In this document: piece after piece, positions 3,654 to 12,601 of the stretch
How the letters are laid out: each line of letters starts with the position of its first letter
Position numbering within the stretch: the stretch's first letter is position 1
Assembly: GCA_030690245.1 (NCBI GenBank)
Contig: JAUYGW010000063.1
Location: 1 to 12,601, forward strand
DNA from: Gallionella sp.
Lineage (GTDB): Bacteria > Pseudomonadota > Gammaproteobacteria > Burkholderiales > Gallionellaceae
Length of the DNA stretch: 12,601 nt
Direction: 5' to 3'
The notes under the pieces: generated by a model
The model's input: the letters and a program-made list of their open reading frames with translations, nothing else
Told to the model about the DNA's origin: nothing
Database searches by the model: none
Translations under genes and position numbers: made by a program

Positions 3654-5996
3654 ATGCTGCCATCCATCGAACAACGCCTCGCTACAGAAATTTCCGCCAA
3701 ACCCGCCCAGGTCGCCGCCGCCGTCGCGCTGCTCGACGAGGGCGCGACTGTCCCGTTCATCGCGCGCTACCGCAAGGAGGCGACCGGCGAGCTGGACGAT
3801 GTGCAGCTGCGGCTGCTCGAAGAGCGCCTGCGCTACCTGCGCGAACTGGAGGAACGGCGCGCGGCGATCATCGCGTCGATCAACGAACAGAACAAGATGA
3901 CGCCGGAGCTGCTGGATGCGATCAGCCATGCCGAAGACAAGACCCGCCTGGAAGACCTGTACCTGCCGTACAAGCCGAAACGCCGCACCAAGGCGCAGAT
4001 CGCGCTGGAGGCCGGGCTGTTGCCGCTGGCCGATGCGCTGCTGGCCGACGCTATGCTCAACCCCGAGGAAGAGGCGGGCAAATACCTGAAGCCTGCCTTC
4101 ACCTCCGAGCAGGGCGACAACCCCGGCGTGCCCGACACCAAGGCGGCGCTGGACGGTGCGCGCTTCATCCTGATGGAGCGCTTCGCCGAAGACGCTCCGC
4201 TGCTGCAGGACCTGCGTGACTACCTGCAAACGCATGGCGTGGTCGAGGCCAAAGTCATCGAAGGCAAGGAAGAGGCCGCCGCGAAATATGCCGATTATTT
4301 CGACTATCAGGAACCGATAGCCGCGATCCCGTCGCACCGCGCGCTGGCGCTGTTTCGCGGCCGCCGCGAGGAGCTGCTGAACGTCACGCTGCGCCTCGAC
4401 AGCGAAGCGGAAAAACCCAAATGGGATGCGCCGCATAACCCCTGCGAAGCGCGTATCGCCAAGCGCTTCGGCATCTCCAACCAGAACCGCCCCGCCGACA
4501 AGTGGCTCGCGGACACAGCGCGCTGGACCTGGCGGGTGAAGAGTTTCCTGCATCTGGAGAGCGAGCTGATGGGGGTGCTGCGCGAGCGTTCCGAGACCGA
4601 GGCGATCAAGGTATTCGCGCGCAACCTGAAAGACCTGCTGCTCGCCGCGCCTGCCGGGCCGCGCGCGACGATGGGGCTGGACCCCGGCCTGCGCACCGGC
4701 GTGAAGGTCGCCGTCGTGGATGCGACCGGCAAAGTGCTGGACACCGCCGTGATCTATCCGCACCAGCCCAGGAACGACTGGGACGGCTCGTTGCACACGC
4801 TCACCATACTCGCCGAAAAACATAAAGTCGCGCTGATTTCTATCGGCAACGGCACGGGTTCGCGCGAGACCGACAAGCTGGCGCAGGATCTGATCAAGCT
4901 GCGCCCGGAACTCAAGCTCACATCTATCGTGGTTTCGGAAGCGGGCGCGTCGGTGTACTCCGCGTCCGAGTTCGCGTCGCGCGAACTGCCCGACATGGAC
5001 GTGACGCTGCGCGGTGCGGTGTCCATCGCGCGTCGCCTGCAAGACCCGCTCGCGGAGCTGGTGAAGATCGACCCGAAATCCATCGGCGTCGGACAATACC
5101 AGCACGACGTGGGACAGCACCAGCTGGCGCGCTCGCTGGATGCCGTGGTCGAGGACTGCGTGAACGCGGTGGGCGTGGACGTCAACACCGCCTCGGCGCC
5201 GTTGCTGGCGCGCGTGTCCGGCCTGTCCGGCAGCGTCGCGCAAAGCATCGTGTCCTACCGCGACACGCACGGCATGTTCGCCACACGCGCCGCGCTGAAG
5301 AAGGTGCCGCGCCTCGGCGACAAGACCTTCGAGCAGGCCGCCGGCTTCCTGCGCGTCATGGGCGGCAACAATCCGCTCGACGCGTCGGCGGTGCATCCCG
5401 AGTCGTATCCGCTGGTGAAAAAAATCCTCGCCGACCTCAACAAAAACATCAAGGAACTGATCGGCGATTCCGGGTTATTGAAGTCGCTCAACCCCGGCAA
5501 ATATGCCGATGAACAATTCGGCGTACCCACCATCAGCGACATCCTCAGCGAACTCGAGAAACCGGGGCGCGACCCGCGACCCGAGTTCACCACCGCCACC
5601 TTCAGGGAAGGCATCGAGGAACTGAAAGACCTCAAACCGGACATGATCCTCGAAGGCGTGGTCACCAACGTCGCGGCGTTCGGCGCCTTCGTCGACATCG
5701 GCGTGCATCAGGACGGGCTGGTGCATATCTCGGCGCTGTCCAACAACTTCGTCAAGGCCCCGCACACCATCGTCAAGGCGGGGCAAGTGGTGAAGGTCAA
5801 GGTGCTGGAGGTGGACGAAAAGCGCAAGCGCATCGCGCTGACGATGCGGCTGACCGACAGCGCTGCCGAGAGTGGAAAAGGCGCGGCACCGCGCGATCGT
5901 CAAGCCGACGCCAAGCGCCTGACGCAGCGCAAGGAAGAGCGCCAGCCCGCGCCAAGCGGCGCGATGGCGGCGGCACTTGCCAAGTTCAAGAGATAA
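3654..5996 (+). CDS. tex: Tex-family RNA-binding transcription accessory protein
   Basis: 780 aa, close to the length of E. coli YhgF and Pseudomonas Tex. Domain order is as expected. The N-terminal helical Tex domain begins [11 protein letters not shown] and carries the family signature [18 protein letters not shown] YqgF/RNase H-like domain starts at about 340, with GLDPGLRTG at 341-349 and NGTGSRET at 399-406. A helix-hairpin-helix region lies at about 485-545, and an S1 RNA-binding domain at about 664-734 ([17 protein letters not shown]). Tex binds nucleic acid and is linked to transcription and virulence-gene expression in other bacteria; its exact role remains debated. The reading frame is open upstream to 3480, but family N-termini match the ATG at 3654, so this start was used. 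No clear Shine-Dalgarno is visible. A strong terminator follows at 6117-6141. Confidence 0.95.
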
Positions 5997-6052
5997 TCCG
6001 GCCGCTGGCGAATTCCGTGCTGGCGAGATGCCGCCCAGCCTGACGCTAGACA

Positions 6053-6164
6053 AAAGCCCATCTATACAGGCCATACAGCGGAAGAAATGCAAAAAACAGA
6101 GAGTGGTATGAAACACAAAAGCCCGCGGTTTGCGGGCTTTTGGCAGCTATTTTGTTGTTATAAA
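6053..6164. repeat. Left copy of the island-flanking direct repeat
   Basis: Bases 6062-6164 are identical to 12499-12601 (103 of 103, offset 6437). The octamer AAAGCCCA just before (6053-6060) also matches 12490-12497, giving 111 of 112 with one mismatch at 6061. The left border at 6053 is sharp. The right border cannot be seen because the second copy runs to the end of the window. The repeat includes the tex-side terminator. Confidence 0.97.
6117..6141 (+). terminator. Bidirectional hairpin terminator after tex
   Basis: A perfect 10-bp stem: left arm AAAAGCCCGC (6117-6126), loop GGTTT, right arm GCGGGCTTTT (6132-6141). The A-run on the left and T-run on the right make it a candidate intrinsic terminator in both directions. 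It would stop tex on the + strand and could also stop minus-strand transcription leaving the island. It lies inside the long direct repeat, so a second identical copy exists at 12554-12578. Confidence 0.85.
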
Positions 6165-6356
6165 CCAACAAGATAGCCAGTATGGCGGTGGACGAACTCT
6201 ACTCGCGCATTGTCTCTGCTGCTCCCCACTGCTAACAGGGATAAATACAGCGAACTGGGCAATGATGCCCCACTGCTTCATCAACACACCAGCACAAAAC
6301 CCAATACAGGAGCCGGTTTCGTGCGAAATCAAGCCATTGATGGCGAAACTGGAACA
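6165..6356. other. Non-coding or unassigned stretch inside the left end of the island
   Basis: Together with the flanking repeats, 5997-6428 has no recognisable intact gene. It holds the tail of the tex intergenic region, the direct repeat with the terminator (6053-6164), this 192-base segment and a gene remnant (6357-6429). Short reading frames are open on both strands (for example minus strand 6332-6147, 61 aa), but none has a ribosome site, a recognisable motif or convincing codon bias. It may contain a remnant of an attachment site or of a lost gene; I could not identify it. Confidence 0.5.
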
Positions 6357-6429
6357 GGGAATTATCAGTGGAAAATAAACACTAGCCGTTCAGAACGGCC
6401 GGACTCATCCAACCATCGCTGGCGGCCAT
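6357..6429 (-). pseudogene. Remnant of the 3' end of the 212-aa gene (left copy of nested repeat)
   Basis: This stretch matches 10509-10581, the last codons and downstream region of the unknown 212-aa gene, with a few substitutions and short indels. On the minus strand it still reads GRQRWLDESG, against GRQEWLDESG at the end of the intact gene. A 1-nt length difference then moves the original stop out of frame. The rest of the gene is absent: homology starts exactly at the stop codon of the primase-helicase gene. It contains the inverted repeat GCCGTT-CAG-AACGGC (6385-6399), which may act as a weak hairpin after the operon. Confidence 0.75.
6385..6399 (-). terminator. Possible weak terminator hairpin after the primase-helicase gene
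   Basis: A 6-bp stem GCCGTT / AACGGC with a 3-nt loop. Read on the minus strand it is followed by TAGTGTTTATTTT, which is T-rich but interrupted. It is placed about 30 nt after the stop codon. The stem is short, so it is only a candidate; the strong hairpin at 6117-6141 would catch read-through. Confidence 0.35.
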
Positions 6430-8816
6430 TATGTAACCTTCGTGTGAGGTTGCTCTGTAACCTCCTGATGATTATTGCCAATCCTGTATCCCATCGCTCG
6501 GTAACCGCGCTGCCGTTTATCCCACATCCGGAGCAGCGCCGGGTGCCCGTTATCCACGAAATCAATGATGCGAACATCCGTCTTGGTCGCATGTTCCCGG
6601 TGGAGGCGGCCGGCGTATTGCTGAAGCGTCCCTTTCCAAGAGACCGGCATCGCCAGAATCAGGGTATCAAGCGCCGGATGATCGAATCCCTCTCCGACCA
6701 ATTTGCCTGTCGCGAGTAGGATGCGCGGTGCATCTGCCGAAAGTTGGTCAAGATCAGAGATCGTGGCGATCCGCTGCTTTTTCGACATCCGACCGTGCAG
6801 CACGAATAGTGAGGTCACTTTTCCGTCAAGTGCAGCCATGATCGCATCAAGGTGCTCTGTACGCTCGGTCAGAACCAGCACTTTTCGGCCTTGCTGATAA
6901 GCGTCTCGGGCCTCGGCAACAATGGCTCCGGTTCGCGCCTGGTCGTTGGCAAGATGCCGGAACACATCCTGAATGCCCGCTTCAGGCGGTAGAGCGATAC
7001 GTGTAAAAAGTGATCGCGGCAGCACCTCCAGATCGTGTGGCGCGTTGGCCGGTTTGGCTGCCGTGTGGCGAATTGGCCCGCACTGCATGAAAATGATTGG
7101 TTGCAGGCCATCTCGACGAATAGGAGTTGCCGTGAGACCAAGCACATACTTGGCTTTGACCGCCTTCAGAATCGCGTCGAATGAGGAAGCGCCAATGTGG
7201 TGGCACTCGTCGATGATGATGTGGCCGTAGTTCTCCACGATGGGATTAACCTCTCCCTGGCGCGACAATGACTGCATCACGGCGATATCGATTTTGCCGG
7301 TCGGCTTGGCCTTGCCACCTCCGATGGTGCCAACTACTCCCTTGCCGATGCCCAGGAAGGATTGAAGACGTTCCTGCCACTGCTTGAGCAATTCGGTACG
7401 ATGCACCAGAACCAAAGTATTGACGCCACGCCGGGCGATCATCGCAGCCGCTGTCACCGTCTTGCCGAAGGCGGTGGGTGCACAAAGCACGCCAGCATCA
7501 TGGCCGAGCATGGCTGTCACGGCGTGTTCCTGATCTGGACGTAGAGTGCCGGCGAAACCGACATCCAAAGCGATGCCGTCATATCTTTCATCGAGCAGAT
7601 CACAGGAAATCCCATTATCCTGAAGCAGGCTTAAGGCGGCATCGATGCAGCCACGCGGCAGTGCGATGTGATTGGGATAATTCTCGGCGCAGCCGATCAC
7701 TCGTGGCTCGTCCCAAACCGAGAATCGCATCGCTTGCTTTTTGTAAAACTCAGGATTTTGAAATGCGGCCAGTCGGATGAGTCGATTGGCCAATGCCTGC
7801 GGCAGGTTGGCCTTATCGAAATAAACTAGGTTGGCGAGCGTCAGCGTCAACGATTTCGGCATTTTTTCGCTCAACTTATCCATGGTTGAACGCTTCCATG
7901 GCTCCTTCAAGTCTTCATCATCAATGAATGTGACATCAAGTGGATGAGAATGGCCGGTCGCTCTGGTGATGGTGGGCTCAATATCGTGGCCTACCATCGG
8001 CTCGATGCGCGACAGGAATCCCCATTGATCCGGGTAGGGGCGCAGATCGTCGTCGACAAACACGCTGCCCCCATTCTCTCGCGGCCCCTTCTGCAAGGGC
8101 AGCGCAATCAGATTGCCGAAGCCACCTTTAGGCATGGAGTCCTGATTGGGGAACAACCGGTCATAGGATTCAAGTTTCAATTGCCGAGTGCGGGCGCAGG
8201 TGTGGCTGATAAGGGCGGTGCCGAGGCGACGAGCATCGCGGGCCGAAACCTTGCTGGCGAAAAACACCCAGACGTGCGCGCCCTTGCCTGACCGTGAAAT
8301 TTCCAGTGCGGCCGGCACGCCAAGGTCATGACAGGACTGCATGAATGCGTGAGCATCATCACGCCACTCGGCTTCATCGAAATCAACGGCAAGAAAGTAG
8401 CAACTATCATCCTCCAGCAAAGGATACACTCCGACCGTATGCTTCCCGATCAAGTGGTTGTAGATCACCGAGTCCGACAGCGGGGACAGTCGCCGATTGT
8501 CGCAGTCACCACATTTCATTCGCGGCTTCCCACACACACCGGCAAGCCATTCGTTTGCGCAGGCCGGCGCGTACCCGGTCTTGCCAGTGGTCTTGCTTTC
8601 CCAACGTACTGGGTAGACATCGGATCGCCCCCGAAACAGGCGGCGAAACAGAGCGACCTTCTCTCCCGTCGTGAGTTGCGAGGGTTCTGGGTCTTGAACT
8701 GGCGCGGCAGGCGGAGGCGGCAAACGCCATTCGATACCGTGGGACTCAAGCAGCAAGATTAGCCGGGCGTTCTCGGTGCGCAGCGCATCTATATCATGGT
8801 AGCCGGAGTGTTTCAT
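6429..8816 (-). CDS. TOTE-type primase-polymerase/SF2 helicase fusion protein
   Basis: 795 aa. An N-terminal short coiled coil (LRTENARLILLLESHGIEW, about 12-30) is followed by an archaeo-eukaryotic primase (AEP) module. This has a Cys cluster that may bind zinc (C86, C95, C102, C105), the catalytic Asp pair in AVDFDE (D145, D147), and the motif SGKGAHVW (176-183). The C-terminal half is an SF2 helicase: Walker A PTAFGKT (K452), DECH box (536-539), LTATP (561-565), GEGFDHPALD (about 708-717) and motif VI QQYAGRLHR (732-740). All core catalytic residues seem intact. This fusion is the signature of TOTE conflict systems, predicted from comparative genomics to be anti-invader systems; activity is not proven by the sequence. 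The start is 17 nt after the hipA stop, with no clear Shine-Dalgarno, so translation may be coupled. The C-terminus ends normally, just after RGYRAMGYRI. Confidence 0.92.
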   Translation of the reverse strand: MKHSGYHDIDALRTENARLILLLESHGIEWRLPPPPAAPVQDPEPSQLTTGEKVALFRRLFRGRSDVYPVRWESKTTGKTGYAPACANEWLAGVCGKPRMKCGDCDNRRLSPLSDSVIYNHLIGKHTVGVYPLLEDDSCYFLAVDFDEAEWRDDAHAFMQSCHDLGVPAALEISRSGKGAHVWVFFASKVSARDARRLGTALISHTCARTRQLKLESYDRLFPNQDSMPKGGFGNLIALPLQKGPRENGGSVFVDDDLRPYPDQWGFLSRIEPMVGHDIEPTITRATGHSHPLDVTFIDDEDLKEPWKRSTMDKLSEKMPKSLTLTLANLVYFDKANLPQALANRLIRLAAFQNPEFYKKQAMRFSVWDEPRVIGCAENYPNHIALPRGCIDAALSLLQDNGISCDLLDERYDGIALDVGFAGTLRPDQEHAVTAMLGHDAGVLCAPTAFGKTVTAAAMIARRGVNTLVLVHRTELLKQWQERLQSFLGIGKGVVGTIGGGKAKPTGKIDIAVMQSLSRQGEVNPIVENYGHIIIDECHHIGASSFDAILKAVKAKYVLGLTATPIRRDGLQPIIFMQCGPIRHTAAKPANAPHDLEVLPRSLFTRIALPPEAGIQDVFRHLANDQARTGAIVAEARDAYQQGRKVLVLTERTEHLDAIMAALDGKVTSLFVLHGRMSKKQRIATISDLDQLSADAPRILLATGKLVGEGFDHPALDTLILAMPVSWKGTLQQYAGRLHREHATKTDVRIIDFVDNGHPALLRMWDKRQRGYRAMGYRIGNNHQEVTEQPHTKVT

Positions 8817-8833
8817 TTGGGCGCTTACTGCGT

Positions 8834-10111
8834 TTACTCACCGGCTGCTGAAGCAGCGGTAGATAAACGCCGTATCGTCAATGCAGAGCGTTGCTCAATG
8901 AGACTGACGATTTGCTCGATTATCCGATTTTTGGAAAAGCCATGGTCAGGTGAGTTCCGGAGTTTCTGTGCGGCCATGGGTAACTGGTGAGCCAGTTCCA
9001 AAATACGCTTGCGGGTTTGCGCCACAGATAATCCGGCGGATGACGCAAATTGCTCCCAGTGAGGCATTTCCACTTCACTAAATTTGTATTTGCTGCCGAG
9101 CTTCATGGCCATTTTTGGAGTGAGGCTCGGGTACACCGCTGTTGATAAGACATCGTAGAGCGGGGCAAGCACAGAACCTTTGCTCGTAAACAGCAAGGAG
9201 AAGTTTTTGGCATGGGCATCGTGATTGCCGATTAGTGCGTTGAATATTACATTGTCGAGTAAGCGCAGGACGTGCGGTGCGCTGGGTCTGGTGACACGGC
9301 GAAGCAACGCAAAGCACTGGGCCAGATCGGGACCACCTTCATTCTGGTATTTCATTTCCGGCACAACACCAAGTGCCTGGCAGAAATCTTCCTGATGTAA
9401 CCGGATCGGACTGCCCGATGCGTCGTGTATTCTGTCATAGCGTTCAACCAATAAAAAACGATGATCACCGACGGAATAAACGAGCGAGCGTGCGGCCTTG
9501 AACTGCATCGCCTCGGCTAGCAATAGACAGAAGTGCTCGTTGGATACGCTATCCTCGACAGCGTGAATGGCTGGCTTCAGGATGTGAGAGCTGGGCGCGT
9601 TATTGCGCGGCAATCCGATTCGGTTGCCGTCAAAAACGACCGGCAACTTATCCTGTGCACCCGCCAGGGATAGACGCAATCCATCTTTGCCAGCCAACAT
9701 AGGGCGATGCGGCAATTCATCCAAAATTGCAATGAGCTCATCATCATTCAGCCAGTCGACTTCGCTGCTCATCGCGGGATGGGGTGGCGGGTGGCCGGGC
9801 TCCGTAAAGGTCACGGCGCCGGCACATTCGCCACCGATGTGATCGAGTAAGGCAAAGTCGTTCTGGCGGGAAATTTGAAACTGCTGCGCAATCAGGCGGC
9901 GCATTTGACCTTCCGGCAACAGCCCTGCAAAGAATGGGCGCGTTTCATGGTCGTCAAACGGTTCTGCCTGTAACGGTAGGGAGCACGACAGCGCAACTGA
10001 ATTGGTGCGCGTCAGCCATTCGTCGGCGTACCTGAAATTGAGCCTTCCCTCTACCAGGGACAAGGTGCCGATATGATTTTCAAACAGCCAGACCTCGAGT
10101 TCATGAGCCAT
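8834..10111 (-). CDS. hipA: HipA-family serine/threonine kinase toxin
   Basis: 425 aa, close to E. coli HipA (440 aa). An N-terminal HipA_N-like domain (about 1-100; LEVWLFENHIGTL, FFAGLLPEG) precedes the HipA_C kinase domain. Visible kinase elements are the Gly/Ser-rich loop SLAGAQDKLP at 148-157, where Ser148 aligns with the autophosphorylated Ser150 of E. coli HipA. The catalytic motif GNHDAHAKN (295-303) has Asp298 as probable base and Asn303 as metal ligand. The metal-binding Asp320 is in LAPLYDVLS. In characterised systems HipA phosphorylates glutamyl-tRNA synthetase (or other targets in homologues), causing growth arrest, and forms a DNA-binding complex with HipB. The ATG overlaps the end of hipB by 11 nt, indicating translational coupling. 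It appears intact. The target here is unknown, and it may be tuned to the downstream conflict gene. Confidence 0.93.
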   Translation of the reverse strand: MAHELEVWLFENHIGTLSLVEGRLNFRYADEWLTRTNSVALSCSLPLQAEPFDDHETRPFFAGLLPEGQMRRLIAQQFQISRQNDFALLDHIGGECAGAVTFTEPGHPPPHPAMSSEVDWLNDDELIAILDELPHRPMLAGKDGLRLSLAGAQDKLPVVFDGNRIGLPRNNAPSSHILKPAIHAVEDSVSNEHFCLLLAEAMQFKAARSLVYSVGDHRFLLVERYDRIHDASGSPIRLHQEDFCQALGVVPEMKYQNEGGPDLAQCFALLRRVTRPSAPHVLRLLDNVIFNALIGNHDAHAKNFSLLFTSKGSVLAPLYDVLSTAVYPSLTPKMAMKLGSKYKFSEVEMPHWEQFASSAGLSVAQTRKRILELAHQLPMAAQKLRNSPDHGFSKNRIIEQIVSLIEQRSALTIRRLSTAASAAGE

Positions 10112-10340
10112 GACTATTATCCCGCGCCGGGAGGCCGCTCAGGTTGATTTCGCCACCCAGTGCTGCGATGACACGCAATACATGCTCAAGACGCAGCGTA
10201 GGTTTGCCAGCCTCCAAATCCACAATGAAACGTACCCCTACTCCAGCCGCCAGTGCCAATTGAGCTTGGGTCAAACCCATTTGTTTACGGGCGGCGAGTA
10301 ATGAGACACCTAGTTGCTGTGTGGTGTGGATGCTAATCAT
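10101..10340 (-). CDS. hipB: HipB-type XRE-family antitoxin and repressor
   Basis: 79 aa, one Cro/C1-type helix-turn-helix (about residues 10-62), with the recognition segment around LTQAQLALAAGVGVRFIVDLEAG split as LTQAQLALAAG and VRFIVDLEAGKPT. Immediately upstream of hipA with an 11-nt overlap, it fits the usual HipB role: neutralising HipA and repressing the operon. The ATG at 10340 was preferred over an in-frame TTG at 10391, because the TTG lies upstream of the predicted transcription start (about 10373) and would add 17 non-conserved residues encoded by operator DNA. No strong Shine-Dalgarno is visible. Three palindromes upstream are its likely binding sites. Confidence 0.9.
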   Translation of the reverse strand: MISIHTTQQLGVSLLAARKQMGLTQAQLALAAGVGVRFIVDLEAGKPTLRLEHVLRVIAALGGEINLSGLPARDNSHGS

Positions 10341-10363
10341 GATTTTGCTTGTCAAGAAATCGG

Positions 10364-10381
10364 ATTTCCCGTTCGGGAAAT
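10364..10381. promoter_or_regulatory. Operator palindrome 1 (proximal) of the hipBA operon
   Basis: Perfect arms ATTTCCCG (10364-10371) and CGGGAAAT (10374-10381) around a TT centre. It overlaps the predicted -10 element and transcription start, so a bound HipB would block RNA polymerase. It is the longest of the three palindromes (8-bp arms). Binding by HipB is inferred from location and from the known autoregulation of hipBA. Confidence 0.75.
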
Positions 10382-10408
10382 TATTGCTCAAGACTGTGAA
10401 TTATGCAA
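10380..10408 (-). promoter_or_regulatory. Predicted sigma-70 promoter of hipB-hipA-primase/helicase
   Basis: On the minus strand a -10-like AATAAT (10385-10380; 5 of 6 to consensus) lies 17 nt after a weak -35-like TTGCAT (10408-10403). The predicted start of transcription, about 10373, is 33 nt before the hipB ATG and inside operator 1. The -35 match is poor, so this rests on the -10, the spacing and the overlap with the operator. Confidence 0.5.
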
Positions 10409-10415
10409 ATTTAAT

Positions 10416-10429
10416 TTCCCGTTCGGGAA
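10416..10429. promoter_or_regulatory. Operator palindrome 2 (middle)
   Basis: TTCCCG (10416-10421), centre TT, CGGGAA (10424-10429). Its core is identical to palindrome 1 and its centre is 50 nt away, just upstream of the -35. Inferred as a second binding site for HipB. Confidence 0.7.
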
Positions 10430-10463
10430 TATCGACGTAGAGAATGCGCAGACTTAATAAAAT

Positions 10464-10479
10464 ATTCCCGAACGGGAAT
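10464..10479. promoter_or_regulatory. Operator palindrome 3 (distal)
   Basis: ATTCCCG (10464-10470), centre AA, CGGGAAT (10473-10479). It has the same core as the other two but in reversed orientation, and its centre is 49 nt from palindrome 2. The regular spacing suggests cooperative or looped binding by HipB/HipA complexes. Confidence 0.65.
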
Positions 10480-10508
10480 CTTATTGCGATGCCACTTTTA
10501 GTCACTTT

Positions 10509-10581
10509 GGGAATCTATCAGTGGAAAAACAAACACTAGCCGTTCCGGAACCCAGACTCATCCAACCATTCCTGACGGCCA
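10509..10581. repeat. Right copy of the nested direct repeat bracketing the hipBA-primase/helicase cassette
   Basis: It matches 6357-6429 over about 73 nt, sharing blocks such as ATCAGTGGAAAA, AACACTAGCCGTTC, CTCATCCAACCAT and CGGCCAT, with substitutions and single-base indels between. It covers the last about 14 codons, the stop and 27 nt downstream of the 212-aa gene. Together the two copies enclose exactly the hipB-hipA-primase/helicase cassette. Confidence 0.8.
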
Positions 10582-11174
10582 TAGCTATAACCAGGGAATT
10601 CGCCATCCAGAGTGGCCACACTTTTAATAAGACGACGGGCAAGATCGACCAATGATCCGGCATCAATTTGGTCGCGCACCTCTAGCGGCACGCAAAGCTC
10701 CATGCCCAGCCCCCACGAATATGCCCTGACGGACATGGACGGACGTACTTCGAAATCGATTCCCTCGGTTTTTAGGCGTTTTTCAGTGGCCAGTAGCTGG
10801 TCATAGCGCTCCAGCCTAGCTTCAGACTGTGGCGGAGCTTGATAGCCGGCCACCTTCTTGCGGGATTTTCCGACTTTTTTCCAGATTTTCTGGCTAGGCT
10901 CATGACCTAATAGCTCTGAGAACTCTGACGGGACAGTTACCGTTGCCTCCCAAGCCTGATCGTCTATGGCATCGGCATAGGCCATTCTGGGATGAATCCA
11001 CCACACCATCACCCGCCGCCCATTCAGAATGAATCCGATGTCGTCCCACCAAGACAATTGGCGAGGGGTCTCATAGCTGTGCGGCAAATACAGGCCATTG
11101 GTCAGCCCCCATTGGCTGTGGCGATGATGCTGACGCATCAAGCGATAAAGGCGTTCGTGTCTGGGATTCTTCAT
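10536..11174 (-). CDS. Uncharacterised 212-aa protein of the island
   Basis: 212 aa, no signal peptide and no clear transmembrane segment. The N-terminus is basic and His-rich (RLMRQHHRHSQWG). An aromatic-rich region follows (LSWWDDIGFILNGRRVMVWWIHPRM, about residues 40-65), then a Lys-rich stretch (WKKVGKSRKKV) and a segment SVRAYSWGLGMELCVPLEVRD. I recognise no enzyme motif. The ATG is preceded by a weak GAAAG and by an in-frame stop upstream (in TCTGAAAG), so no longer start is possible. The 3' end is duplicated as a remnant beyond the primase-helicase gene. It lies 195 nt upstream of hipB in the same direction. Coding is supported by length, composition and conserved remnant frame; function unknown. 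Confidence 0.75.
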   Translation of the reverse strand: MKNPRHERLYRLMRQHHRHSQWGLTNGLYLPHSYETPRQLSWWDDIGFILNGRRVMVWWIHPRMAYADAIDDQAWEATVTVPSEFSELLGHEPSQKIWKKVGKSRKKVAGYQAPPQSEARLERYDQLLATEKRLKTEGIDFEVRPSMSVRAYSWGLGMELCVPLEVRDQIDAGSLVDLARRLIKSVATLDGEFPGYSYGRQEWLDESGFRNG

Positions 11175-11238
11175 GATCGGTAGCTTTCAGAGTAATGGGC
11201 AATCCTGCCAGATTCCTGCGGCCTTGTCCTTAAATGGC

Positions 11239-11530
11239 TCAGCCCCCTTCTTCGAAGACCGGAACACATGGTGGGCGCTCATTCGTCTTGATCCACCCGC
11301 ACACTTGATGCCACGCCTTTGCCGCGCCACTTTTCCGTTGGATCCAGCTGACCGCTTCCTCGGCACGACTGAGCCAATTTTTTCCGTAATCGGTTAGCTC
11401 TGTTTGGCTAACAGCCACGACTTCACGCAGATGTGCCACATATTGACGAAGCAGCGTGGCATCAGACCAAGCTTTGGCCTCTTTCAGCGCCCCATCAAGG
11501 CTTATCAAACACGCGAAGGGGCTGTCACAC
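11239..11530 (-). pseudogene. Probable 5'-truncated unknown gene (C-terminal fragment)
   Basis: A minus-strand frame runs from an ATG at 11613 to TGA at 11239 (124 aa). Its first about 28 residues are simply the complement of the recombinase remnant on the other strand, so they are not likely part of the original protein. The rest, from about ALKEAKAWSDATLLRQYV to VFEEGG, looks like a helical, soluble C-terminal portion of a larger protein. I do not recognise the family. It lies 64 nt upstream of the 212-aa gene in the same direction and may once have been its operon partner. The truncated frame could still be expressed; evidence for this is weak. Confidence 0.4.
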
Positions 11531-12351
11531 CATGCCTCCTCTCCGGGCTGCTGTTTGATCATAAAGGTCGAAAGTTCACCACCGGCGGCCAGGTCACCAA
11601 AAAAACAACTCACTACCGTTTTTATATTTGCTCACTCTCGACCTCTGCTACTGAAGGCAAGCCCCCCCGAAAACTTACGCCTGCCTGCAAACGATATAGA
11701 AGGAGTTGTCATAGATGCGCTTGTCAGCTTGCTCACTGACAGTAGCCGTATGGCGGAGTTGATATCGAGCGCAGATGAAAAAGTAGTTCAGCAACATCTA
11801 AATCGCGCCACCGCTCTGGCACAGCAGTTATCTGAAGGTCGTGCCCCGGAAAAGATCGATGCACTTCAATCACTGCTAGATCGGGTGTGAGTGTGCATCC
11901 TGATTACGTCGAAATCGGCGTCAAAAGTTTTTTGCAAAAATCATCAGCGACAGCAGATGCAACAAATCGATCCTCTGCGACTGTGATCACGGTGCCAATC
12001 AAACTCCGGCAACGTAGCAAGGCGTGGCGTCTTGTAGTTCAGCCCAAGCAGGATGCATTCTCGCAAGAGGCCGACCCCAAACTGGGAGCACTAATCTCGA
12101 AGGCTCATGACTGGTTGTCACGATTGACGTCAGGTCGATATGACGGTGTACAGGCGATTGCCACCGAGGAAAAGATGACCAGCTCATATGTCACCCGGGT
12201 CATCTATGTCGCGTACCTGGCACCGGATATATCCCTAAGAGTTCTCAAGGGGGATCACCCGCCTGATCTGACCGCAAAGAAGCTGCTGAGCTTGGTTCCC
12301 CTGCCCGACCGTTGGGAAGAGCAACGCCGGCTGCTAGGCATGCAAAACTGA
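11515..12351 (+). pseudogene. Large serine recombinase, C-terminal remnant with two frameshifts
   Basis: Pieces in two frames join into the C-terminal part of a large serine recombinase. Piece 1 (to about 11668) holds the recombinase beta-ribbon-like segment SLL-type LLSGLLFDHKGRKF followed by HYRFYICS. Piece 2 (about 11668-11887) holds LPANDIEGVVIDAL and a helical region to LQSLLDRV. Piece 3 (11887-12351) holds VHPDYVEIGV and the characteristic C-terminal module with YVTRVIYVAYLAPDI, PPDLTAKKLL and WEEQRRLLG. Frame 1 changes to frame 2 at a run of seven C (11665 region); six C would keep the frame. Frame 2 returns to frame 1 at a GTGTGAGTGTG stretch (11885-11895), where a TG duplication introduces a TGA. 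The resolvase catalytic domain with its nucleophile Ser is missing entirely, so the protein cannot recombine DNA. Sequencing error could explain the frameshifts but not the missing N-terminus. Confidence 0.8.
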
Positions 12352-12372
12352 GTCGTTCTACCCCGCGCTGTC

Positions 12373-12401
12373 ACAGCCCGCATAACGCGGGCTGTTTTTT
12401 T
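12373..12401 (+). terminator. Intrinsic terminator after the recombinase remnant
   Basis: Perfect 9-bp stem ACAGCCCGC (12373-12381) and GCGGGCTGT (12387-12395) with a 5-nt loop ATAAC, followed by a run of seven T (12395-12401). It sits 22 nt after the recombinase stop, so it is the natural end of that gene. Confidence 0.9.
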
Positions 12402-12489
12402 ATTCGATATGGCAATTTAGTGCCTCGCCAAACCCGTAATCCAGATTAGAAATTCGCTGAAAGTGGTAGCGGCGATCTAGCCAGCAGAG

Positions 12490-12601
12490 AAAGCCCAGCT
12501 ATACAGGCCATACAGCGGAAGAAATGCAAAAAACAGAGAGTGGTATGAAACACAAAAGCCCGCGGTTTGCGGGCTTTTGGCAGCTATTTTGTTGTTATAA
12601 A
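12490..12601. repeat. Right copy of the island-flanking direct repeat (runs to window end)
   Basis: Identical to 6062-6164 from 12499 to the last base, plus the matching octamer at 12490-12497. The repeat reaches the window edge, so its full length and what follows are unknown. The 88 bases before it (12402-12489) contain no gene. Confidence 0.97.
12554..12578 (+). terminator. Second copy of the bidirectional terminator
   Basis: The same 10-bp stem and GGTTT loop as at 6117-6141, carried by the direct repeat. If island insertion duplicated it, both island edges are insulated by the same terminator. Confidence 0.8.

Follow-up and report, generated by a model that had tools for sequence, protein, structure and literature searches.

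The stretch of DNA analysed here (the window: 12,601 nt of Gallionella sp., the whole of contig C320 in an 82.5%-complete, 2.34-Mb metagenome-assembled genome, MAG) carries a hipB-hipA toxin-antitoxin (TA) pair followed on the same strand by a gene for a primase fused to a helicase. We lean towards the view that a HipB-repressed TA operon on a mobile island acquired its third gene, that of a mobile and probably defensive primase-helicase, by capture. Judged by sequence, hipBA itself is a known type II TA module, and it is the primase-helicase in third place that appears to be new. The first gene, hipB (10101..10340, minus strand, with its ATG at 10340 and its stop at 10101), encodes a predicted helix-turn-helix (HTH) antitoxin/repressor of 79 amino acids (aa) of the Y4mF type, scoring 78.8 bits with the Y4mF-family antitoxin model TIGR03070 (cut-off 71.65). 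It lies directly upstream of hipA (8834..10111, minus strand) and overlaps it by 11 nt (10101-10111). HipA, a predicted Ser/Thr-kinase toxin of 425 aa (PF07804, PF13657; HipA_C 177.5 bits, Couple_hipA 98.3 bits), aligns across most of its length with E. coli HipA (PDB 2wiu; E 2.4e-45). Its residues D298, N303, D320 and S148 are invariant in 6 aligned HipAs and presumably include the catalytic Asp and the Gly-rich loop serine. The third gene (6429..8816, minus strand) encodes a 795-aa protein in which a PrimPol-type archaeo-eukaryotic primase (AEP) is fused to an XPB/UvsW-like superfamily 2 (SF2) helicase (PF22548, PF04851, PF00271).

The gap between hipA and the helicase gene is just 17 nt long (8817..8833, minus strand), and consensus and operator scans gave no terminator-, promoter- or operator-like match in it. 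Past the stop of the helicase gene there is a terminator-like hairpin (6384..6400, minus strand; consensus only). Because of the gap, the candidate operators ahead of hipB and this hairpin, one HipB-repressed operon for antitoxin, toxin and primase-helicase is the simplest reading. A preliminary description of this DNA had already proposed one apparent operon, with neither terminator nor promoter between hipA and the helicase gene; its coordinates, its 11-nt overlap and its 17-nt gap were all reproduced from the sequence, the scan of 8817-8833 agrees with it, and the apparent operon stands behind HipB-type operators.

These predicted operators are three perfect 14-bp palindromes, TTCCCGWWCGGGAA, located upstream of hipB at 10366..10379, 10416..10429 and 10465..10478. 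These three, all upstream of hipB, are the only ones in the 2.34-Mb MAG, and the same pattern written backwards does not occur at all. At up to 3 mismatches, no operator-like site was found between hipA and the helicase gene; two 3-mismatch matches, against a chance expectation of 1.6, lie at 7527, inside the helicase gene, and at 10537, at the end of a 212-aa gene. We compared 12 related hipBA loci (L016, L116-L125 and L263, of which L016 and L116 may be one species), and in 11 of them three sites with 0-2 mismatches are found 48-50 bp apart, the remaining one (L120) having two. Since it is kept in these loci, the array is a trait of this hipBA subfamily, independent of the downstream gene, and it is intact in the window. 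The spacing is near-constant although the HipAs are 42-74% identical, which calls for a structural reason such as looping or stacked HipB. Three degenerate sites (2-3 mismatches; at 232, 281 and 330, spaced by 49 bp) also occur on the prophage-like contig L170, which carries the same three genes, under a relaxed pattern that gives many chance matches.

Between two of the operators lies a sigma70-like promoter match (10380..10409, minus strand; 9 of 12 positions, consensus only), which in a simple consensus scan is the sole minus-strand promoter-like site of the operon region. Weak minus-strand terminator-like matches were found in hipA (9026-9010) and in the helicase gene (8283-8270 and 7507-7492), and each of the palindromes also scores as a hairpin followed by a T-rich tail (10479-10464, 10429-10416 and 10381-10364). 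As 23 terminator-like matches were observed against 13.8 +/- 4.3 in shuffled sequences, and 4 promoter-like matches against 5.3 +/- 2.6, single weak matches of either kind mean little.

With this arrangement in mind, we propose how the operon works. In this proposal, one promoter within three phased HipB operators would give a single mRNA for the antitoxin, the kinase toxin and the primase-helicase. While HipB is plentiful, the operon would be repressed and HipA neutralised; loss or depletion of HipB would then free HipA, leading to growth arrest, and raise expression of the primase-helicase together with it. The enzyme, in turn, is predicted to act on an incoming replicon, remodelling and priming its branched or single-stranded nucleic-acid intermediates. 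Co-transcription, binding and repression by HipB, derepression and antiviral action are all inferred.

The primase-helicase consists of an AEP-TOTE primase domain (residues 52-280), a ResIII/DEAD domain (424-567) and a Helicase_C domain (641-740), with Pfam scores of 332 bits for AEP-TOTE PF22548 (cut-off 27), 95 for ResIII and 37.9 for Helicase_C. The PADLOC 'PrimPol' model, labelled CRISPR-associated, matches its N-terminal half with 385 bits. Residues D145 and D147 of the primase, K452 of the Walker motif and D536-E537 of the DE-box are invariant in 23 aligned enzymes, and the catalytic residues picked out beforehand (D145/D147 and K452 here, D298 in HipA) are thus conserved in both alignments. 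In a moderately confident structure model (mean pLDDT 67.8, pTM 0.43), the helicase side matches XPB and T4 UvsW and the primase side matches CRISPR-associated Prim-Pol (CAPP; PDB 7nqd/7nqe/7nqf) with a TM-score of ~0.77, normalised by target length. A sequence search returned XPB, UvsW and Prim-Pol relatives again, plus RadD. Our literature search found no experimentally tested function for the family, whose domain is present, partly in partial form, in 26 of the 274 genomes of our class survey.

Both the helicase gene and hipA look to be under purifying selection, in a comparison that covered these two genes: the proportions of nonsynonymous (pN) and synonymous (pS) differences were 0.089 and 0.595 for the helicase (against L002), and 0.175 and 0.762, near saturation, for HipA (against L016). 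This bears on the possibility that the three genes were joined by chance juxtaposition or misassembly, which we consider very improbable. The sequence does come from a metagenome assembly, and its contig ends in a repeat. However, all three genes are open, two of them appear to be under purifying selection, the same gene order is found on the independent contig L170, and the density of HipA in the flanks predicts only ~0.57 same-strand upstream HipAs among the loci surveyed, against 3 or 4 found.

The survey comprised 156 distinct enzyme N-termini including that of the window, 149 of the other 155 having at least 600 nt of upstream sequence. They were drawn from the best 80 of 564 confirmed genome loci, from samples of the class, phylum, order and one further class, from a viral scan, and from 25 stretches out of 347 matching plasmid records. 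By profile search, a same-strand HipA lies within 650 nt upstream of the enzyme in 5 of the 156 loci including the window, and none lies within that distance on the other strand or downstream, although an annotated HipA piece is found at L237. The preliminary description had tied its case to the recurrence of hipBA beside the enzyme; HipA does lie directly upstream in 4 of the 155 other loci, in backgrounds as diverse as a prophage-like contig, two plasmids and a MAG. On the first of these, L170 (IMG/VR), where inspection by eye shows an integrase fragment to the left and proteins resembling those of phage tails to the right, hipB, hipA and the helicase gene follow one another with an overlap of 4 nt and a gap of 11 nt, HipA and the enzyme being 63% and 76% identical to those of the window. 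In an uncultured proteobacterium (MAG, L047), a HipA of 28% identity is encoded 69 nt ahead of the enzyme gene. Plasmids of Undibacterium (L153) and Alloyangia (L202) both have the order HTH-HipA-enzyme, with HipA identities of 24% and 38% and gaps of 460 and 289 nt, respectively.

Locus L202 was opened because of its HipA search match, so that the numbers of upstream HipAs to be compared with the expectation of ~0.57 are 3 or 4, for which the chance probabilities are P(>=3) 0.02 and P(>=4) 0.003. More distant HipAs were seen at L237, L029, L016 (two) and L047 (a second one); the expectation leaves L237 out of the distant ones, and counting it raises the value to ~0.7 (by hand). At L016, hipBA lies 3.8 kb downstream of the enzyme, behind genes that by eye resemble insertion-sequence (IS) genes. 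In a FastTree tree of 147 enzymes (9 of the 156 were omitted as short or broken, including L047 with hipA and L077 with AbiE), the 4 hipA-labelled tips require 4 changes. A viral scan made with HipA by itself was unproductive. In the viral scans with alignments, most of the enzyme was present at 13 loci (L264-L276), of which one, the L170 contig, has hipA upstream and one has RhuM; of 16 viral HipA loci, one adjoins the enzyme, and it is again that contig.

Several observations weigh against a firm tie between HipBA and the enzyme. HipBA is a rare partner, found at 4 of 155 other loci, or 3 of 154 without L202. HipA is present (E <= 1e-30) in 52 of the 274 class-survey genomes, and in none of the 7 other genomes with both genes are they adjacent at this threshold, the pair in G136 being 28 kb apart. 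The enzyme is missing from the flanks of all 10 close hipBA loci (L116-L125), two of which have short flanks (85 and 546 nt). On these two results we rejected HipBA as a fixed partner. That HipBA is the partner of the enzyme is not supported either; it is a minority one, behind an uncharacterised 181-aa family (32 loci), AbiE (11) and YgjP (7). The order of genes is not fixed either: at L237 the enzyme comes first and the annotated HipA N-terminal piece follows 515 nt later, its HipA being IS-interrupted. An excess of 4 upstream over 1 downstream HipA is not significant (Fisher p 0.38), and the viral contig L266 has an AbiE-like match downstream of the enzyme. The gaps of L153 and L202 leave room for a separate promoter, and operator matches there are weak; the enzyme gene of L047 consists of two same-frame pieces split by an in-frame stop. 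In the window itself, the ribosome-binding site of the primase-helicase is poor by eye.

The other partners place HipBA in a wider context. The nearest upstream gene at the 156 loci belongs to the 181-aa family in 32 cases, to AbiEii in 11, YgjP in 7, HipA in 5 (with the window), RhuM in 4 and Gp49 in 3, with 88 others and 6 loci with too little flank. RhuM is more often the second gene up (15 near matches by profile). The 181-aa family (e.g. L025:7445-7990), for which a Pfam search gave no match, is thus the commonest partner of the enzyme; in many Proteobacteria its genes, often preceded by a RhuM gene, end at or just inside the enzyme start. When loci with the 181-aa, RhuM, YgjP and HipA families were removed, 75 upstream open reading frames (ORFs) of at least 75 aa remained, in which Pfam recognised AbiEii (11), HTH_37 (4), ParE (4), HTH_3 (3), McrBC, PIN, DUF1828, DUF1829, Resolvase and TniQ (2 each), and single BrxL, SIR2, NYN and others. 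NCBIfam added Dsr1 and HigA, and type I restriction pieces were also among the identified upstream genes. One ORF further upstream, AbiEi, Gp49 and HigB were among the genes found, along with housekeeping ones (GMP synthase, for example).

As a downstream control we scanned 93 ORFs from 128 loci, the window copy being omitted. Among the 25 of 39 families listed for them there were ParE (4), RelE (1) and Fic (2), and neither AbiEii nor HipA. By profile, AbiE is near-upstream at 11 of the 156 loci and downstream at none (AbiEii, 11/149 upstream against 0/128 downstream, p 0.001). TA genes as a whole amount to 25/149 upstream against 7/128 downstream (Fisher p 0.004), with Pfam counts summed by hand from the families listed; the 181-aa, RhuM, YgjP, AbiE and Gp49 families were chosen since they had been seen upstream, and the upstream bias is partly by construction. 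In the enzyme tree, the 10 AbiE tips need 8 changes and the 32 tips of the 181-aa family need 19, indicating that joins and losses are frequent and that the enzyme acts like an exchangeable gene in downstream position. It behaves, in other words, as a modular passenger placed repeatedly downstream in TA and restriction operons, HipBA being one host of several. The 11 loci with AbiE toxin genes directly upstream (L178, L175, L181, L182, L201, L039, L064, L077, L035, L088 and L094) point to a possible AbiE-helicase system. On alphaproteobacterial plasmids (L225, L227, L228, L229, L231, L234 and L236), the enzyme has TniB/TniQ or a row of three tyrosine recombinase genes next to it.

Such surroundings raise the question of whether the primase-helicase serves the mobile element itself, in replication, transposition or repair, rather than defence. 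Plasmid records in which the enzyme stands beside TniB/TniQ or tyrosine recombinases, or has a recombinase on one side and a Tn3-family transposase on the other, are in line with this, as are the 2 resolvases and 2 TniQ among the 75 upstream ORFs. We nevertheless regard it as improbable, since many identified upstream genes are of the TA or restriction kind (AbiEii, ParE, type I restriction pieces, McrBC, BrxL, Dsr1), and our scan of island ORFs recognised no replication initiator, no search for origins having been made.

One may also extend our preferred reading, of a TA operon with a captured primase-helicase, beyond HipBA. In this tentative and rather doubtful generalisation, TOTE-type primase-helicases would be a general plug-in third gene of unrelated TA operons (HipBA, AbiE, Gp49/HigBA, ParDE), with loss of the antitoxin as the infection sensor; from a single promoter it would switch on two arms, arrest of growth and an effector that remodels nucleic acids. 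If the antitoxin truly governs the primase-helicase, then TA modules would, beyond arresting growth, be ready-made, autoregulated triggers that separate lineages attached to the same effector, providing a testable link of TA biology to defence islands and a first handle on the enzyme family. If the enzyme merely hitch-hikes, the association would still explain how such enzymes spread and are retained.

The latter possibility, in which hipBA retains the island and the primase-helicase rides downstream as cargo, arrest and helicase being functionally unlinked, is a serious though less likely alternative. Repeats mark the ends of the island, and its recombinase has decayed. Its outer direct repeat (112 bp, copies 99% alike) bounds the whole island at 6053..6164 and at 12490..12601, where the right copy reaches the contig end. 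The recombinase remnant (11404..12351, plus strand) is broken into pieces in different frames, of which only 11887-12351 matches a family (phrog_14161, 'recombinase', E 8.2e-22); the earlier pieces, seen by eye, gave no family match except a sub-cut-off TraI_2. A HipBA system stabilises a Klebsiella plasmid, and stabilisation of a Shewanella genomic island is cited in the same report (PMC11487325, accessible part). Furthermore, loci L116-L125 have the same operators and no such enzyme in their flanks, and on the Acidovorax plasmid pACP3.2 hipA is followed by a HAD protein. On the other hand, different HipA types recur directly upstream of the enzyme, on the same strand and on separate branches of its tree, and unrelated TA families fill the same upstream slot, beyond what a random order of cargo suggests.

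The hipBA-helicase unit is flanked, within the island, by an inner direct repeat of 67 bp whose copies are ~86% alike. The upstream copy (10516..10582) takes in the 212-aa gene's 3' end together with the 20 nt that follow; the downstream copy (6363..6429) resembles that 3' end, carries the terminator-like hairpin and ends on the final base of the helicase stop codon. Recombination between the two copies could allow swap or loss of the 4.15-kb unit. The 212-aa gene (10536..11174, minus strand) has no assigned function and its product no Pfam match; the family has 183 homologues, one relative of 88% being named Ferrigenium kumadai. A homologue (L263:3678-4235) precedes hipB-hipA on pACP3.2 too, where the order is integrase, 212-aa homologue, hipB-hipA and HAD protein, with no helicase after hipA, and the family is possibly a further member of the hipBA unit.

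The outer repeat has a third copy, a partial one (75 nt, 97%) that adjoins tRNA-Ser(cga) on contig C62 (L085:4706-4780), and the repeat could be a tandem element or a shared target. We rejected a simple insertion at a tRNA-Ser adjoining tex genus-wide: at 19 congener loci the sequence around tex (~1.5 kb each side) contained no tRNA gene, and in the congener G1304 tex and tRNA-Ser are 237 kb apart, with the outer repeat not seen behind that tRNA-Ser. An Rfam search at gathering scores gave no match. In another congener, L180 (G884:C15:149960-152014), a primase-helicase copy of 78% identity has three in-frame stops.

Our search of the literature, by titles and abstract starts and with subscription papers mostly outside it, returned nothing on a hipBA-primase-helicase operon, and the accessible parts of PMC8262856, PMC8649781, PMC10910872, PMC5862659, PMC10853773 and PMC12839542 make no mention of the arrangement. 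Two known groups of systems resemble the enzyme. With CAPP it shares the AEP/Prim-Pol fold, but here this is fused to an XPB/UvsW-like helicase. No cas gene was found among the island ORFs scanned, where Cas3 models match the helicase half only, and weakly, and no array-like family is among the 20 largest repeat families listed for 5900-12601. With the TOTE conflict systems, named after TPR, OB, TBP and Effector (accessible part of PMC12458937, which credits a 2022 review by Aravind and others), it shares the AEP effector domain PF22548, here fused to an SF2 helicase. TPR, OB/CSD and TBP genes are absent from the island ORFs scanned and from the 25 commonest families listed per neighbour-ORF set, and it is TA or restriction genes that neighbour such enzymes instead. 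The earlier label of TOTE conflict protein thus holds for the AEP-TOTE domain, and, as the other TOTE components were not found, 'TOTE' here is the name of a domain and not of a system to which the enzyme belongs.

Among Hip systems, the window is closest in layout to the E. coli HipBA-type TA operon (PDB 2wiu), with which it shares the antitoxin in first place, its overlap with hipA, the kinase motifs and upstream palindromes. It differs in the primase-helicase gene that follows 17 nt downstream, and in the operator sequence, the triple array and its ~50-bp spacing, the array being common to related hipBA loci without the third gene. The hipBST operon also has three genes, but its extra gene encodes the antitoxin HipS, whereas that of the window encodes an unrelated enzyme (PMC8262856, accessible part). 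HipAD (DS-6), according to the accessible part of PMC13092281, from whose main text the word 'primase' is absent, is likewise an operon with a HipA-like kinase, and antiphage activity has been reported for it; phage protection is a feature of HipAD, and its second protein is DUF3037/DUF1829, where the window has HipB. With defence by HipAD and plasmid keeping by HipBA both reported, the defence and the retention readings of the present operon each have a precedent.

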